Shown here in pieces: positions 7,402-63,262 of a DNA stretch of 64,000 nucleotides. The notes under the pieces were generated by a model. It saw only the letters and a program-made list of their open reading frames with translations, was not told where the DNA came from and ran no database searches. The stretch is from Blastococcus sp. CT_GayMR16 (lineage in GTDB: Bacteria; Actinomycetota; Actinomycetes; Mycobacteriales; Geodermatophilaceae). Position numbers and translations under genes: made by a program. Location of the stretch: positions 1 to 64,000 of the forward strand of contig NZ_SPQK01000016.1 of the NCBI RefSeq assembly GCF_004570875.1, given 5' to 3'. Position 1 is the stretch's first letter; each line of letters starts with the position of its first letter.

Positions 7402-7728
7402 ATGAGCCGGGTACTCGGTGAGACCGCCGGTCGGGTGGGCGAAGAGGTGCAGGTCGAGCGCGGTCCGCTGGGTCCGGTGCAGTTCTGGCGGGGGGAGTCC
7501 CGCTACCTCGTGGGCGAGCTGCTCGACTCCTGGGTGGAGACCCCCGCCTGGTGGCGCCGCGGTGCCGCCGTGGCCGGCGGGGCCTCCGCCGAGCTGGTCG
7601 CGAACCAGGAGGTGTGGCGGGTCGAGGCGGTCCGGGCGGGCCGCTCGCGGACGAGCTTCGCCGGTGTCTACGACCTGTCCTGGGACGCCGCGGGCAACCG
7701 TTGGTGGCTCGTCCGGGTGCACGACTGA
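7402..7728 (+). CDS. DUF6504 family protein
   Basis: A 108-residue conserved actinobacterial protein. It has GPVQFWRGESRYLVGELLDSW, then a Trp-rich half (VETPAWWRR, EVWRVEA, and a C-terminal RWWLVRVHD), matching the small DUF6504 family often found beside DnaE2 or DinB-type polymerases. Function is unknown. ATG at 7402 follows a GGGGAGTGGAG Shine-Dalgarno-like run. Its stop overlaps the next ATG (TGATG at 7726-7730). It is the first gene behind the SOS box, so it should be DNA-damage induced. Confidence 0.8.
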   Translation: MSRVLGETAGRVGEEVQVERGPLGPVQFWRGESRYLVGELLDSWVETPAWWRRGAAVAGGASAELVANQEVWRVEAVRAGRSRTSFAGVYDLSWDAAGNRWWLVRVHD

Positions 7729-8249
7729 TGGGCGCCGTCCGCGCCGTGCCGGCCGCCGGTCAGCTGCCCCTGCCCCCGGCGCTCCCGGCCGCTGCGGCGC
7801 AGCTCCTGGACCAAGCGCACCGCGGCCTGACCGAGGCCGCCGGCTGCCTCGACCCCCGGCAGCGCTATGCCACGGCGCACCTGGGTGCGCTGCGCGCCGC
7901 TGCCGCAGTGCTGGCCGCCCGCACCCGGCCCGAGCCGGCCCGCGGCCGGCCGCGCAGTGCGTGGGTGCTGCTCGGTCAGGTCGCGCCCGAGCTGGGGGAG
8001 TGGGCCACGTTCTTCGCTGCGGGTGCCGCCAAGCGGGCAGCGGCCGAGGCCGGCCTCTCGCACGCGGTGACCGAGCGGGAGGCCGACGACCTCGTCCGCG
8101 ACGTCGGGGCCTTCCTCGCCGTGGTGGAGAACTGTCTCGCCACCTCGTACGGCAGCACGTCCGCCGTCGAGCCGCCGCGGCCCACCTATGCCCGGCCGCG
8201 CGTGGTCGGCGGCACCGCCACCGGGCCCGCCTCCAGGCCCCGGAGGTGA
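7728..8249 (+). CDS. SAV_6107-type HEPN domain protein
   Basis: A 173-residue, mostly helical, Ala-rich protein. The arrangement LLDQAHRGLTEAAGCLDPRQ followed by RYATAHLGALRAAAAVLA matches the SAV_6107 HEPN family that accompanies actinobacterial dnaE2 genes. I do not see a clear R-x4-6-H catalytic motif of HEPN RNases, so it may be a non-catalytic partner. The last ~25 residues are Pro/Arg-rich and likely disordered. It is coupled on both sides: start overlaps the DUF6504 stop, stop overlaps the DnaE2 GTG (8246-8249). A role as accessory factor of the polymerase is inference from context. Confidence 0.75.
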   Translation: MGAVRAVPAAGQLPLPPALPAAAAQLLDQAHRGLTEAAGCLDPRQRYATAHLGALRAAAAVLAARTRPEPARGRPRSAWVLLGQVAPELGEWATFFAAGAAKRAAAEAGLSHAVTEREADDLVRDVGAFLAVVENCLATSYGSTSAVEPPRPTYARPRVVGGTATGPASRPRR

Positions 8250-11200
8250 CTGATCCCTTCGTCCATCTGCACGTCGCGTCCGGTTACTCCATGCAGTACG
8301 GGGCCAACCACCCTGCCGATCTCGTGGCCAGGGCTGCCGAGCACGGCATGACGGCACTGGCGCTCACCGACCGCGACGGGCTCTACGGCGCGGTCAAGTT
8401 CGCCCTGGCCTGCCGGTCGGCCGGCGTGCGGCCGATCTTCGGGGTGGACCTCGCGATCGCCCCCGTCCTGGACACCACGCTGCCCCCCGCTCTGGCCCAT
8501 CCGGTGGGTGGCGGGACGCGCCCCCGGATGCAGGCGCCTGCCCGCCGGGCGCCTGCCCGCGGTGGGGCCAGCGTCGACCCCAGGCTGCCCCGGGCGACCT
8601 TTCTCGCCCGCGACGGCGCCGGCTGGCGATCGCTGTGCCGGCTCACCAGCGCCACCCACCTGCGCAGCACCCGCGGGGAGCCGGTGAGCTCGCTGGCGAT
8701 GGCGGCCGAGCACGCGACCGGGCTGATCGCACTGCTCGGTCCCGGCTCCGCGGTCGGCCGGGCGCTGCTCACGGGCCGGGCCGATCTCGCCCTCGCCCAC
8801 CTCGACACCTGGCGGGCGGCGTTCGGCCCGGGCCGGCTGGTGCTCGAGGTCGTCCACCACCGCGGTCAGGGCGATCGCTCGCGGGCCCAGGCGATGCTCC
8901 GGTTCGCGGCCGAGCACGACGTGCCGGTGGTACTGAGCAACGCCGTCCGGTACGTCGACGCCCTGGACGCCCCGACCGCCGACGTGCTGGACGCCGCCCG
9001 CCGGCTGGTGGCGCTCGACGCGCGGCACGTCGACCGGCGGACCGCCGAGGGCTATCTCAAGTCGGGCAAGGAGATGGCCGAGGTCGCCGAGGAGCTCGTC
9101 GGCCCCGACCGCGACGCGGCCCTGCGGCTGCTCGAGCGCACCGCCCGGCTGGCCGAGCAGTGCGCGGTCGACATGCGCGACGACCTGGGCATCGGCAGCG
9201 TCCGCTATCCCGAGCTCGACGTCGTCACCACGCCCGCCGAGCGGGGGATGGGCCCGTCGGAGGTGCTGCGTGCCCGGTGCGAGGCGGGGATGGGCCGTCG
9301 GGGGATGGCGCCCTCGGAGCGGGTCCGGCAGCGACTCGACGAGGAGCTGGGGGTGATCGACCAGCTCGGCTACCCGTCCTACTTCCTCACCGTCGCCGAC
9401 GTGGTCGACCTCATCAAGAGCTTGAGGGTTCGGGCCGCGGCGCGCGGATCGGGTGCCGGCAGCCTGGTCACCTACCTGCTGGGCATCTCCGACGTCGACC
9501 CGCTCCGGTACGGGCTGCTGATGGAGCGCTTCCTCTCCCCGCTGCGCCACCAGCTGCCCGACATCGACATCGACGTGGAGTCCGCCCGGCGGATGGAGGT
9601 CTACGACGCGGTGATCGACCGCTTCGGCGCCGACCGGGTCAGCTGCATCTCGATGATGGACACCTACCGGGTGCGGCACGCGATCCGCGACGTCGGGGCC
9701 GCGCTCGGGTTGCCTCCGGCGGAGATCGACGCCGTCGCCAAGGCCTTTCCGCACATCCGGGCCAACCAGGTGCACGCCGCGCTCAAGGACCTGCCGGAGC
9801 TGCGGGCCAGCCGGCTCGGTTCCCGACGGGGTGGTGGCACCGGCGATCTCGACCTGATGTTCGACCTGGTCTCCCGGCTCGACGGCCTGCCGCGGCACAT
9901 CGCGCTGCATCCGTGCGGGGTGCTGCTGTCGGACGCCACGCTGCTGGACCGCACGCCGGTGGAGAGCAGCTACCTCGGCTATCCGATGAGCCAGTTCGAC
10001 AAGGACGACGTCGAGGAGCTCGGCCTGCTCAAGCTCGACCTGCTGGGCATCCGGATGCAGTCGGCGATCGCGCACGCCCTCGACGAGGTGGCCCGGGTCG
10101 ACGGCGAGACCGTCGACATCGACGCCGTGCCGCGCGACGACCCGATGACGTTCGAGCTGATCCGCAGCACCCGCACGCTCGGCATGTTCCAGATCGAGTC
10201 GCCCGGGCAGCGGGAGCTGGTCGGCAAGTTCGGGCCGCAGACATTCGAGGACATCATCATCGACATCTCGCTGTTCCGGCCCGGGCCGGTGAAGAGCGAC
10301 ATGGTCACGCCGTTCCTCATGGCGCGGAACGGCTGGCGGGACGCCGTCTACCCGCACCCCGACCTCGAGTTCGCCCTCGAGGAGACGGCGGGGGTCGTCG
10401 TCTTCCACGAGCAGGTGCTGCAGGTGGTGGCCCGGATGACCGGCTGCACCCTGGCCGAGGCCGACGAGGTGCGCCGGGCGCTGGGGGAGAAGGACGCGCA
10501 CGCCGAGGTGCGGGCCTGGTTCGTGCCGCAGGTGCTGGCCGCGGGCTATCCGGTGGACGTCGCCGAGCAGGTCTGGACGGTGCTCGCGGCGTTCGGGTCC
10601 TTCGGCTTCTGCAAGGCCCACGCGGCGGCGTTCGCGCTGCCCACCTACCAGTCCGCCTGGCTGAAGACCCACCACCCGGCGGCATTCCTCGCCGGGGTGC
10701 TCACCCACGACCCGGGGATGTATCCCAAGCGGCTGATCCTGGACGACGCCCGCAACTTCGGGATCCGGGTGCTGGGCCTGGACGTCAACGTCTCCGCCGG
10801 CACCTACCGCGTCGAGCGGATCGAGTCCGAGCCCGACGGCGACACCGGGGACGACGACACCGGGGACGACGGCAGGGGCTGGCAGCGGCCGGAGTGGATG
10901 CCGGACTCGATGCGGTCGCCGTCGGACTACGGCATCCGGCTGGCGCTCGCCGACGTGAAGGGCATGTCGGAGGAGGAGGTCGCCCGGGTCGTGACGGGGC
11001 AGCCGTACCGCTCGCTGACCGACTTCTGGCACCGGGCGTCGGTGTCCCGGCCGGTGGTCGAACGGCTGGTGCTGGCCGGCGGTTTCGACTCCCTCTACGG
11101 CTTCGGGGTGCGCGACCGCGAGGCCGGCCGGCCGACCCACCGCCGCAAACAGGTGACCCGTCGCGACCTGCTGCTGCAGATCGGGGAGCTGGACCGCTGG

Positions 11201-12004
11201 AGCCGCAGCGGTGCGCGGGCGAGTTCCAGCGGGCAGCTCAGCCTGGACCTGATGGGGCTGGAGCTGCCCGAGGGCGAGACGGAGGGGCCGGAGGAGACCG
11301 GACCGAGCTGGGCGGAGGGCAGCGGCCTGCCGGAGTTCACCGACGCCGAACTGGTGCGCGCCGAGCTGGAGGTGCTCGGCCTGGACGCCAGCCGGCACGT
11401 CGTCGACTTCTACAAACCGTTCCTGGCTGCCATCGGGGCGGTGCCGGCGGGGGAGCTGCTCACCTGCCGCAGCGGCGCGGAGGTGCTGGTCGCCGGGGTG
11501 AAGGTGGCCACCCAGACGCCGCCGATCCGCTCGGGCCGCCGGGTGGTCTTCGTGACCCTGGACGACGGCACCGGATGCACCGACTCGACCTTCTTCGAGG
11601 ACGCGCAGGGGCCGTACGCCGCCACGGTGTTCCACTCCTGGCTGCTGGTCATCCGGGGGGTGCTGCGGCGCACGGGTCCGCGCGGGGTGTCGCTGCGGGC
11701 CACCGGGGCCTGGGAACTGCCGGCGCTGCACGAGGCGTGGGAGGCCGACGGGCTCGACGGCGTGCGGGACCTGATGACGACGCCGGGGGAGTACACCGAC
11801 CAGGCCATCGCCGGGGCGGCGGAGTCGCGGAACTCGCGGCCGGTCATGGTGCGGCCGGTGCTGGTCCATCCGACGGGCTTCCGGATGTCGCCCTACGCCG
11901 ACATCAAGCCGGCGGGCGAGGACTCGAAGATCGCGGCACGGCGTGCGGCGTCCGGACCGCCCCGCAAGCTCTGGCACTCCAGCCCCGGCAGCTCAGGCCA
12001 CTGA
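8246..12004 (+). CDS. dnaE2: Error-prone DNA polymerase III alpha-like subunit DnaE2
   Basis: A 1252-residue C-family DNA polymerase. It has an N-terminal PHP domain, the palm with catalytic Asp residues in PDIDIDVESARR (near base 9560) and KLDLLGIRMQSA (near 10030), a helix-hairpin-helix region, and a C-terminal OB fold (VLVAGVKVATQTPPIRSGRR). In the PHP domain the metal-binding HxH becomes HVA (LHVASGYSM) and the TDH position reads TDRDGLYG, so PHP exonuclease activity is probably lost. It is longer than many DnaE2 proteins because of a Pro/Ala/Arg-rich insert near 8500-8580 and an acidic repeat (GDTGDDDTGDDG) near 10840. Start GTG overlaps the HEPN stop. SOS control and gene order argue for translesion DnaE2 rather than replicative DnaE1. 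Confidence 0.88.
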   Translation: MTDPFVHLHVASGYSMQYGANHPADLVARAAEHGMTALALTDRDGLYGAVKFALACRSAGVRPIFGVDLAIAPVLDTTLPPALAHPVGGGTRPRMQAPARRAPARGGASVDPRLPRATFLARDGAGWRSLCRLTSATHLRSTRGEPVSSLAMAAEHATGLIALLGPGSAVGRALLTGRADLALAHLDTWRAAFGPGRLVLEVVHHRGQGDRSRAQAMLRFAAEHDVPVVLSNAVRYVDALDAPTADVLDAARRLVALDARHVDRRTAEGYLKSGKEMAEVAEELVGPDRDAALRLLERTARLAEQCAVDMRDDLGIGSVRYPELDVVTTPAERGMGPSEVLRARCEAGMGRRGMAPSERVRQRLDEELGVIDQLGYPSYFLTVADVVDLIKSLRVRAAARGSGAGSLVTYLLGISDVDPLRYGLLMERFLSPLRHQLPDIDIDVESARRMEVYDAVIDRFGADRVSCISMMDTYRVRHAIRDVGAALGLPPAEIDAVAKAFPHIRANQVHAALKDLPELRASRLGSRRGGGTGDLDLMFDLVSRLDGLPRHIALHPCGVLLSDATLLDRTPVESSYLGYPMSQFDKDDVEELGLLKLDLLGIRMQSAIAHALDEVARVDGETVDIDAVPRDDPMTFELIRSTRTLGMFQIESPGQRELVGKFGPQTFEDIIIDISLFRPGPVKSDMVTPFLMARNGWRDAVYPHPDLEFALEETAGVVVFHEQVLQVVARMTGCTLAEADEVRRALGEKDAHAEVRAWFVPQVLAAGYPVDVAEQVWTVLAAFGSFGFCKAHAAAFALPTYQSAWLKTHHPAAFLAGVLTHDPGMYPKRLILDDARNFGIRVLGLDVNVSAGTYRVERIESEPDGDTGDDDTGDDGRGWQRPEWMPDSMRSPSDYGIRLALADVKGMSEEEVARVVTGQPYRSLTDFWHRASVSRPVVERLVLAGGFDSLYGFGVRDREAGRPTHRRKQVTRRDLLLQIGELDRWSRSGARASSSGQLSLDLMGLELPEGETEGPEETGPSWAEGSGLPEFTDAELVRAELEVLGLDASRHVVDFYKPFLAAIGAVPAGELLTCRSGAEVLVAGVKVATQTPPIRSGRRVVFVTLDDGTGCTDSTFFEDAQGPYAATVFHSWLLVIRGVLRRTGPRGVSLRATGAWELPALHEAWEADGLDGVRDLMTTPGEYTDQAIAGAAESRNSRPVMVRPVLVHPTGFRMSPYADIKPAGEDSKIAARRAASGPPRKLWHSSPGSSGH

Positions 12005-62125: not shown

Positions 62126-63202
62126 TCAGCCCAGGCGGATCGGCATGAGCATGCTGACGTCGCCGGCCCGGCCCGGGACCCGGATCGCCAGCGGTGCGAT
62201 GGGGCCGTCGAGCTCGAGGACCAGCTGACCGGGGCCGCCGGCGTCGAGGGCCTCCAGCAGGAACTCCCGGTTCACCCCCATCTCGAGGACCCCCGCGGTC
62301 TCGGACGCGAAGCTCACCCCGCCGTCGCGCCCGAGGCTGAGAACGGACACCTCCTGCTCGCTCCCGGCCTCCTCCCCGCGGACGACGCGGGTGGCTGCGG
62401 CGGCCAGCTCCGCCCGGAGCGCGGCGGCATCGACGTCCACGCGGTGCGTGGCGCTGCCGCGCAGCAGCCGGCGGTAGTCCGGGAAGTCGTGGTCGAGCCG
62501 TCGGCCGCGCACGGTGTGGCCGCCGGTCTCGACGGTGAGGTCGTCGCCGGTGACGGTGATCGCGACCGGGCCGGCGTCGTCGCCGAGCACTGCGAGCAGC
62601 TCGTCCACGAGCGTCACCGGGACGATCGCGCTCACCGGCGGCCCACTGACCCCGGCACCGGCGAGCGTGGACACGGCCAGCCGGTAACGGTCACTGGCGG
62701 CCAGCCGGACGGCGTCGCCGTCCACGTCGAGGAGGACTCCCGTCAGCATGGGCAGTTCGGCGTCGGTGCTCACGGCGTAGCGGACGGCGCGCAGGGCGGT
62801 GCCCAGTTCCTCGGCGGTCGTGGTGATGCGGCTCGGGCTGGGGACGGCGGTCATCGGGCTCTCCTGGTCGAGTAGGGATCGGGTCGCGGAGAGCTCACGG
62901 CGGGCGTCGTCCAGGCCTTCCTCCAGGCGCGTCAGGTGCGCCTGGAGGATCCCGTCGACCACCGGGCGGTCCCGGCGGTGCTCGAGCACCCGGCAGATGT
63001 CGGCCAGCGGCATGCCGACGCGACGCAGCCGGGCGACGAGCCGCGCGGTGACGACCTGGTCGTCGGCGTACCAGCGGTAGTTGCTGTGCGGGTCCACCCG
63101 GGCCGGCACGAGCACGCCGGCGCCGTCGTAGAACCGCAGGGCGCTCACCGTCAGCCCGCACTCGCGGGCCATCTGACCGATCCCGCGCACGTGTTCCTCC
63201 AC
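62126..63202 (-). CDS. MerR-type regulator fused to beta-sliding-clamp-like (DnaN domains 2-3) module
   Basis: A 358-residue two-part protein. Residues ~6-75 are a MerR winged HTH (IGQMARECGLTVSALRFYDG, SNYRWYADDQV, RLRRVGMPLADICRVLE); ~80-112 form a coiled-coil helix. Residues ~125-358 match domains 2 and 3 of DNA polymerase III beta: TAEELGTALRAVRYAVST, VRLAASDRYRLAVSTL, DHDFPDYRRLL and the clamp-like C-terminus VSMLMPIRLG. Clamp domain 1 is missing. No effector-binding Cys as in metal-sensing MerR. GTG 63202. Partner, ligand and ring-forming ability are unknown; a MerR family member with DnaN fold may occur in other actinobacteria but its function is not known to me. Confidence 0.85.
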   Translation of the reverse strand: MEEHVRGIGQMARECGLTVSALRFYDGAGVLVPARVDPHSNYRWYADDQVVTARLVARLRRVGMPLADICRVLEHRRDRPVVDGILQAHLTRLEEGLDDARRELSATRSLLDQESPMTAVPSPSRITTTAEELGTALRAVRYAVSTDAELPMLTGVLLDVDGDAVRLAASDRYRLAVSTLAGAGVSGPPVSAIVPVTLVDELLAVLGDDAGPVAITVTGDDLTVETGGHTVRGRRLDHDFPDYRRLLRGSATHRVDVDAAALRAELAAAATRVVRGEEAGSEQEVSVLSLGRDGGVSFASETAGVLEMGVNREFLLEALDAGGPGQLVLELDGPIAPLAIRVPGRAGDVSMLMPIRLG

Positions 63203-63262
63203 GTGCTCGACCGTCGGGCCTCGACCTGGTCGAGAGTCAACCCGGACGCGCCGACACTCCGC

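Follow-up and report, generated by a model that had tools for sequence, protein, structure and literature searches.

A MerR Regulator Joined to Two Domains of the Replication Clamp: A Candidate Sensor and Trap for Clamp-Docking Molecules in Actinobacteria

Introduction

We describe a gene of Blastococcus sp. CT_GayMR16 (positions 62126–63202, minus strand) that joins a MerR regulator to domains 2 and 3 of the replication sliding clamp. The gene lies in a window of 64,000 nucleotides (contig NZ_SPQK01000016.1, positions 1 to 64,000), and it belongs to an old, actinobacterial family with a divergent second subfamily (subfamily 2; the main group is called subfamily 1). Known MerR effectors are metal-, redox- and drug-binding; the protein described here is a MerR one-component regulator with a new type of effector. 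On balance, the evidence tips modestly toward a TipA-like system that regulates its own gene and both senses and traps molecules docking in the clamp pocket, possibly griselimycin-like antibiotics. If two thirds of the clamp, including the pocket targeted by griselimycins, serve as the effector, a core target in replication would be coupled directly to gene regulation. A search of the literature, limited in coverage to open-access papers, returned nothing on the MerR-clamp architecture.

Results and Discussion

Architecture of the Fusion Protein

The reading frame is unbroken, contains no in-frame stops, starts with GTG and codes for 358 residues. A Pfam scan assigns residues 8–74 (62981–63181, minus strand) to the MerR helix-turn-helix domain (MerR_1, E 3.9e-13, above the cut-off) and residues 131–242 (62477–62812, minus strand) to clamp domain 2 (DNA_pol3_beta_2, PF02767, E 2.2e-17). 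The latter contains the motifs SDRYR and FPDYRR of pocket subsite I. Clamp domain 3, as located by a TIGR00663 match and by AlphaFold models, covers residues ~253–357 (62132–62446, minus strand) and includes the C-terminal MLMPIRLG. The dnaN profile TIGR00663 aligns fusion residues 123–357 with its positions 124–367 of 367, which correspond to domains 2 and 3 only, and the score of 85.6 bits falls below the DnaN cut-off of 137.65 bits. DnaN has three domains, and clamp domain 1 is absent from the fusion. The ordinary dnaN of the same genome is a separate gene on another contig (C47).

An AlphaFold model of the entire protein (pLDDT 90.9, pTM 0.70) consists of a MerR head, a 36-residue helix (residues 79–114; 62861–62968, minus strand) and a clamp-like module. 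The helix follows the helix-turn-helix domain in this monomer model, as expected for the coiled coil by which MerR proteins dimerize. Modeled alone, the clamp part reached a pLDDT of 92.1 and a pTM of 0.89. Its best Foldseek matches are E. coli clamps, the first with a TM score of 0.78 by query length and an rmsd of 6.0 Å over 262 columns. Because the rmsd to real clamps is about 6 Å, the angle between domains 2 and 3 in this model may deviate from that of a clamp. The TipAS effector domain (PF07739) found no match in the fusion in a Pfam scan to E 1. The initial annotation had read the gene as a MerR regulator joined to clamp domains 2 and 3 and had suggested structure prediction as a check; Pfam, TIGR00663, AlphaFold and Foldseek all agree with this reading, and the models of the whole chain and of the clamp part both show a clamp-like C-terminal part. 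On the contig, one neighbor is an acyl-CoA dehydrogenase-type gene that converges on the fusion; the other, an alpha-amylase-type (GH13) gene, lies upstream and has the same orientation.

Peptide Pocket and Ring Interface

Ligands of the clamp dock in a two-part pocket (subsites I and II), the residues of which are listed in the excerpt of PMC11139829 on which this comparison is based; 18 positions were used. At nearly all of these, subfamily 1 (71 rows, 67 distinct) agrees with DnaN, with examples including 362M, 363P and 242P (each 71/71), 172T (69/71) and 365R (67/71). This alignment comprises 71 of 78 ORFs; the omitted ones are fragments, a MerR-only match, two DnaN matches and a duplicate of the window locus. 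L072–L075 repeat L029, L003, L004 and L006, which accounts for the smaller number of distinct rows. Positions 152 (L) and 174 (R) differ steadily from early-branching DnaNs and agree with the 18 host-type DnaNs. The pocket residues are largely kept in 42 Micromonosporaceae rows too, where variation occurs at positions 175 (Y in 24, F in 11, H in 7) and 242 (P in 37, T in 5). Five of the 47 loci in that set gave no ORF, and L018 and L347 are the same gene.

Conservation of the pocket was quantified for a set of 21 positions of our own choice. In subfamily 1 the mean entropy of this set is 0.38 bits compared to 1.23 for all 206 columns, and 20,000 random column sets all had higher values. DnaN itself shows the same kind of contrast (pocket 0.52 versus 1.53). 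The C-terminal MPVR and the other pocket residues are thus conserved far above the average column. The initial annotation had proposed that the clamp module acts as a sensor for a ligand or partner and that the fate of the clamp-binding residues should be checked; they are kept in subfamily 1, which supports a sensor role as far as a sequence comparison can. Subfamily 2, compared for 17 of 19 loci, retains most of subsite I and has lost N320, Y323, V344 and R365. Since these residues are not kept, subfamily 2 may take other ligands.

The interface that closes the ring fared differently from the pocket of subfamily 1. Of the 71 subfamily-1 rows, 38 have gaps in the domain-3 stretch that corresponds to I272/L273 of the E. 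coli clamp, as do 12–13 of the 17 subfamily-2 rows; the remaining rows are mixed there, within a region of loose alignment. All 18 host-type DnaNs have L and V in this stretch. Ring closure has probably been lost by the fusion clamp module, and the PCNA-like trimer or ring that was initially considered appears disfavored by this gapped or mixed stretch in both subfamilies. The mean net charge of the four inner helices is −2.9 in subfamily 1 and +0.15 in 20 DnaNs, a weak indicator with overlapping ranges. The module may provide a ringless clamp pocket for structural work.

Promoter and Operator

Alignment of 72 upstream regions (68 distinct) revealed a conserved promoter that consists of TTGACC, a 19-bp spacer with the dyad CTCGACC-N-GGTCGAG, and a −10 element of the form xAnnnT. 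The right arm of the dyad is looser in Streptomyces. In the window, the −35 element is TTGACT (63235–63240, minus strand), the operator dyad CTCGACCAGGTCGAG (63220–63234, minus strand) lies inside the 19-bp spacer (63216–63234), and the −10-like element GACGGT (63210–63215, minus strand) ends 7 nt before the GTG start. A palindrome within a 19- or 20-bp spacer is described as the MerR signature by PMC1526738, with reference to metal-resistance MerR systems, and this is the arrangement found here. The start codon follows the −10 element by 7 nt in 68 of 72 rows (64 of the 68 distinct ones), a distance so short that the mRNA would be leaderless. One plasmid record annotates the start four codons further downstream. 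Subfamily 2 has another dyad with the same kind of spacing. Because a MerR-type promoter stands 7 nt before the start of the fusion in 64 of 68 distinct upstream regions, the gene is, by prediction, autoregulated. We also considered control by LexA as part of the SOS response and judge it disfavored, since a dyad with an odd center in the promoter spacer suits a MerR protein better.

Internal Start Codon and Predicted Short Isoform

The junction between the MerR part and the clamp module carries a second set of translation signals. In the window these are the Shine-Dalgarno (SD) sequence AGGAG (62861–62865, minus strand) and an ATG at residue 117, from which a predicted short isoform of 242 residues, the clamp module alone, would extend to the stop (62126–62854, minus strand). 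A start codon stands at the junction or within two codons of it in 86 of 90 non-identical subfamily-1 genes (ATG 74, GTG 11, TTG 1). The exact junction column, read in 50 rows, contains ATG in 41, GTG in seven, TTG in one and another codon in one. Of the 86 junction starts, 85 are preceded by an SD sequence; for other in-frame start-like codons the figure is 186 of 1870. The arginine codon within the SD sequence is AGG, a rare codon, in 48 of 62 cases, compared to 2.9% elsewhere. Because the replacements of methionine are nearly always still start codons, it is the start codon, rather than the Met residue, that these alignments indicate to be under conservation. A looser test in Micromonosporaceae looked for a start with SD anywhere within a stretch of 44 codons at the junction; 36 of 42 rows contain one, as do 85 of 462 other stretches taken from these genes. 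The internal start is absent in 4 of 90 and 6 of 42 subfamily-1 rows.

Subfamily 2 lacks a start with SD at the junction in 16 of the 18 loci read (of 19). The two exceptions, L215 and L218, are also the two loci without the TPR-like gene described below, an agreement that involves small numbers. In L141 and L165, a start with SD lies inside the coiled coil. Where it is conserved, the internal start would yield a free clamp module in the fashion of TipAL and TipAS.

Candidate Regulon

In the genome of the window, no site other than the fusion gene's own operator has fewer than two mismatches; three sites contain two mismatches and the rest three (44 sites in total, compared to 19 for a reversed control). 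Eleven other genomes contain four non-self sites with 0 or 1 mismatch, and these precede a TPR-like gene (G002 and G022), an MFS exporter gene (Plantactinospora) and a second copy of the fusion (G021). The last of these is the only such site found in the Streptomyces genomes among the eleven. In G770, a degenerate site precedes the TPR-like gene. Operator sites occur in 34 of 112 genomes of Geodermatophilaceae, and six of the loci read there have no recognized gene downstream of the site.

Micromonosporaceae proved more informative, with a site at ≤1 mismatch in 193 of 300 genomes. We assigned the gene downstream of 81 sites (30 loci plus 51 exact-match sites among the matches listed), choosing the strand with the better −10 element where both fitted. 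The downstream gene is the fusion itself in 37 cases, TPR-like in 20, YunG in 12, MFS in three and a MerR gene without clamp in one, with four other genes and four sites followed by none. One of the four other genes (L333) is an MFS protein by profile match, so that three is a lower bound (at least three MFS), and another (L305) resembles a frameshifted TPR gene. A −10 element fits in 78 of the 81 sites. Gene and site occur together in 184 of the 300 genomes, the site alone in nine, neither in 85, and the gene without a site at ≤1 mismatch in 22; this co-occurrence is partly built in, since the fusion's own sites are counted. Subfamily 2 carries a TPR-like gene directly downstream in 16 of 19 loci, a partial one in one and none in two. 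Judged by the operator sites of subfamily 1 and by the downstream gene of subfamily 2, the commonest set is the fusion itself plus the TPR-like gene, reached via two arrangements.

The proteins encoded behind these sites were compared with profile libraries. For the MFS proteins, the matches are to H+ antiporter and efflux models, at scores under the NCBIfam cut-offs, and to Pfam MFS_1 above its cut-off. The TPR-like proteins score below the Pfam cut-offs for TPR, and two members (L272 and L268) have no Pfam match at all. The one YunG protein tested (L279) matches PF24585 with E 5.5e-37; YunG-like genes stand behind the operator in L278–L280, L297, L298, L302, L304, L306, L307, L311, L325 and L330. 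The operator sites offer a possible functional context for the YunG family, as they may for the TPR-like family; the best matches listed in a literature search for YunG contained nothing on the subject. A TPR homologue was not found in the window's own genome, and neither YunG nor MFS genes gave a match within the 64-kb window.

Two other candidates for co-regulation were discarded. Blastococcus fusion genes have an MFS gene just upstream, and the operator does not head that gene; in L074, the stop codon of the upstream MFS gene overlaps the −35 element. In Plantactinospora and other Micromonosporaceae, the site does lie upstream of the MFS gene. The initial annotation had pointed to a DnaE2 operon in the same window as a possible link to repair. 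The DnaE-type polymerase ORF, presumably the one meant, is located at 7418–12004, some 50 kb from the fusion, and the identified operator-linked genes are the fusion, TPR-like, YunG and MFS genes. Given this distance and its absence from that set, we reject the connection. Four loci (L236, L237, L239 and L251) contain operators without a recognized intact fusion downstream, near the same type of MFS gene or parts of it; in these, the regulator seems to have been lost repeatedly while its operators persisted as relics.

Comparison with Known Systems

The closest parallel in working is the TipA class (TipAL/TipAS, Mta, SkgA, AlbA), members of which also combine a MerR head with an effector and are autoregulated, according to the part of PMC7762955 consulted. 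The same text describes two isoforms of S. lividans TipA, TipAL and TipAS, made from two alternative starts, and the short form traps thiopeptides; for the fusion, a short form is predicted from a sequence signature. The effectors differ: instead of the TipAS fold, the fusion contains a sliding-clamp module, and its predicted 242-residue short form would comprise domains 2 and 3. The fusion therefore resembles a TipA-class system in its working yet lacks the effector domain that defines this class.

BmrR-type regulators share the long-spacer promoter, and fusion operators stand before MFS exporters in some species. Among solved structures, the MerR head of the fusion matches chains labeled "multidrug-efflux transporter 1 regulator", which we take to be BmrR. 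The effector of BmrR is GyrI-like, as stated in the same part of PMC7762955, and that of the fusion is a clamp module. With DnaN, the fusion has domains 2 and 3 and the peptide pocket in common. It differs by the missing domain 1, the gapped or variable ring-interface stretch, a score below the TIGR00663 cut-off and the attached MerR head, and by domain count and score it is no DnaN. A further comparison, made by description alone, is offered by GriR and MypR of griselimycin and mycoplanecin producers. The section of PMC10817943 used for this comparison reports that the clusters for these peptides contain a second dnaN that is thought to confer self-resistance; GriR and MypR are DnaN genes within antibiotic clusters and, unlike the fusion, no regulators.

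Proposed Mechanism

These parallels suggest how a sensor and trap for pocket ligands might operate. The MerR heads would pair through the coiled coil on the conserved dyad within the over-long 19-bp spacer. The C-terminal part of each chain is a two-domain clamp copy which, by its sequence, has kept the pocket and probably lost ring closure. In the true clamp, this pocket is the dock for clamp partners and for griselimycin-type antibiotics. By analogy with other MerR proteins, binding of a ligand in the pocket would cause the dimer to switch the promoter on, thereby raising the level of the fusion itself. In species with more sites, the TPR-like protein, the YunG protein and the MFS exporter behind the observed operators would also be raised. 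Induction would also, owing to the conserved internal start, produce large amounts of free clamp module able to bind the ligand and thereby protect the real clamp. The kept pocket, together with the signals for making the clamp part alone, suggests a defense against molecules that attack the clamp.

The most likely ligands would be natural clamp-targeting peptides, or proteins of phages or rivals that dock in the same pocket. Griselimycins and mycoplanecins appear to be the best-motivated candidate class; the same section of PMC10817943 describes them as actinomycete peptides that bind DnaN with nanomolar affinity. We advance the most specific version of this idea tentatively and would sooner bet against it than for it: part of the replisome may have become a chemoreceptor. 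In this view, natural peptides that target the clamp would be detected by a ringless two-domain clamp attached to a MerR head; the protein would activate the fusion gene itself, along with TPR, YunG and exporter genes in certain lineages, and the clamp module would be released as a decoy by way of the internal start. If this were true, antibiotics against the clamp would have to be widespread in soil, and possession of the fusion would mark the organisms that meet them. The fusion might also serve as a biosensor for finding new clamp-targeting antibiotics.

Alternative Functions

A different source of ligands is conceivable. Because the pocket resembles that of true DnaN at nearly every position, clamp-binding proteins of the host could occupy it, and a shift in their free level would flip the promoter on or off, so that the fusion reports the state of replication or repair. 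Several Streptomyces TPR homologues (L223–L225 and L228–L232) indeed follow a gene that reads like a uracil-DNA glycosylase (UDG); the one tested (in L225) matches Pfam UDG with E 1e-16. No fusion-type operator was seen just upstream of these Streptomyces loci. We consider such a reporter unlikely, given that no repair or replication gene was recognized among the identified operator-linked genes, that 10 of 16 genomes of the window's genus lack the gene or contain a fragment without its start (some of these genomes are incomplete), and that the location of the gene varies within Streptomyces, as far as crude gene calls can tell.

Somewhat more doubtful still is a role of the clamp fold as a mere scaffold, in which the module binds an unrelated small molecule and the pocket is conserved for the needs of folding. 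MerR proteins do employ several effector folds, of which the consulted part of PMC7762955 names TipAS and GyrI-like, and subfamily 2 has kept the fold despite the loss of subsite II. Folding needs account poorly for a pocket, including the C-terminal MPVR, that is so much more conserved than the average column and that matches DnaN position by position.

The short isoform could also act on the replisome or against phage, with clamp fragments that sequester clamp partners or clamp-targeting phage proteins at a dose set by the MerR part. The conserved internal start, the predicted autoregulation and the presence of subfamily-2 copies on plasmids would all fit. Operators before MFS exporters better suit a small exported molecule, and the sole PADLOC match, at 32.4 bits, is that between the HTH part and mad1; we regard this possibility as improbable. 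Finally, a frameshift or misassembly that joined two genes can be dismissed, since the identical join recurs in 66 of 68 loci from other genomes of several actinobacterial genera and in further genomes sampled. The preferred reading remains that of a sensor and trap for molecules that dock in the clamp pocket.

Distribution and Phylogeny

The 68 fusion loci fetched from other GTDB genomes are mostly from Streptomyces and otherwise from Kitasatospora, Actinacidiphila, Blastococcus, Geodermatophilus, Plantactinospora and metagenome-assembled actinobacteria. The 66 with the identical join span nearly the full query, and the other two match part of the clamp module alone. Phylum-wide, 55 of 396 sampled genomes matched, 44 of them by DnaN only and 11 by the fusion (six subfamily 1, five subfamily 2). 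A class-wide sample gave matches at E 1e-33 or better in 33 of 394 genomes, including two (G533 and G683) that match only positions 5–135 and 5–183. Micromonosporaceae, the family of the Plantactinospora genome (G020) examined above, contain a match at E 1e-50 or better in 206 of 300 genomes. The phylogenetic profile proposed in the initial annotation thus places the architecture in many actinobacteria, with a patchy occurrence in the window's genus. No conserved neighbors of the gene were established in Streptomyces from the crude gene calls. Plasmid-borne copies of subfamily 2 exist, and the annotated plasmid records call the product "MerR family transcriptional regulator".

A maximum-likelihood tree of 70 clamp modules (midpoint root; nine duplicate or partial loci omitted) separates both fusion subfamilies from 39 actinobacterial and E. 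coli DnaNs by a branch with support of 97/98, and each subfamily is supported by 100/99. A single origin of the fusion would be the simplest reading of this tree. Among the DnaNs sampled, the tree also indicates that the clamp module is no recent copy of the host's own DnaN.

The closest named relatives of the fusion are from Blastococcus (73% identity to B. haudaquaticus). The 6 of 16 genomes of this genus that carry the gene match with ≥69% identity from residue 1 (G014 only to residue 134). Broken genes were observed in two genomes of the genus, one of which retains the MerR part (L076/L254, to ~residue 134) and the other (G001) a fragment of clamp domain 3 (L077, residues 267–338). In L263 and L292, tblastn matches the fusion gene in two pieces, with a middle that is inserted, shifted or highly diverged. 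One record in the set is named "UNVERIFIED_ORG: Bacillus sp. AZ43" (L006, SPQJ01000002.1); because its fusion protein is identical to that of L075, placed in the window's genus, the organism name on this record is probably wrong.
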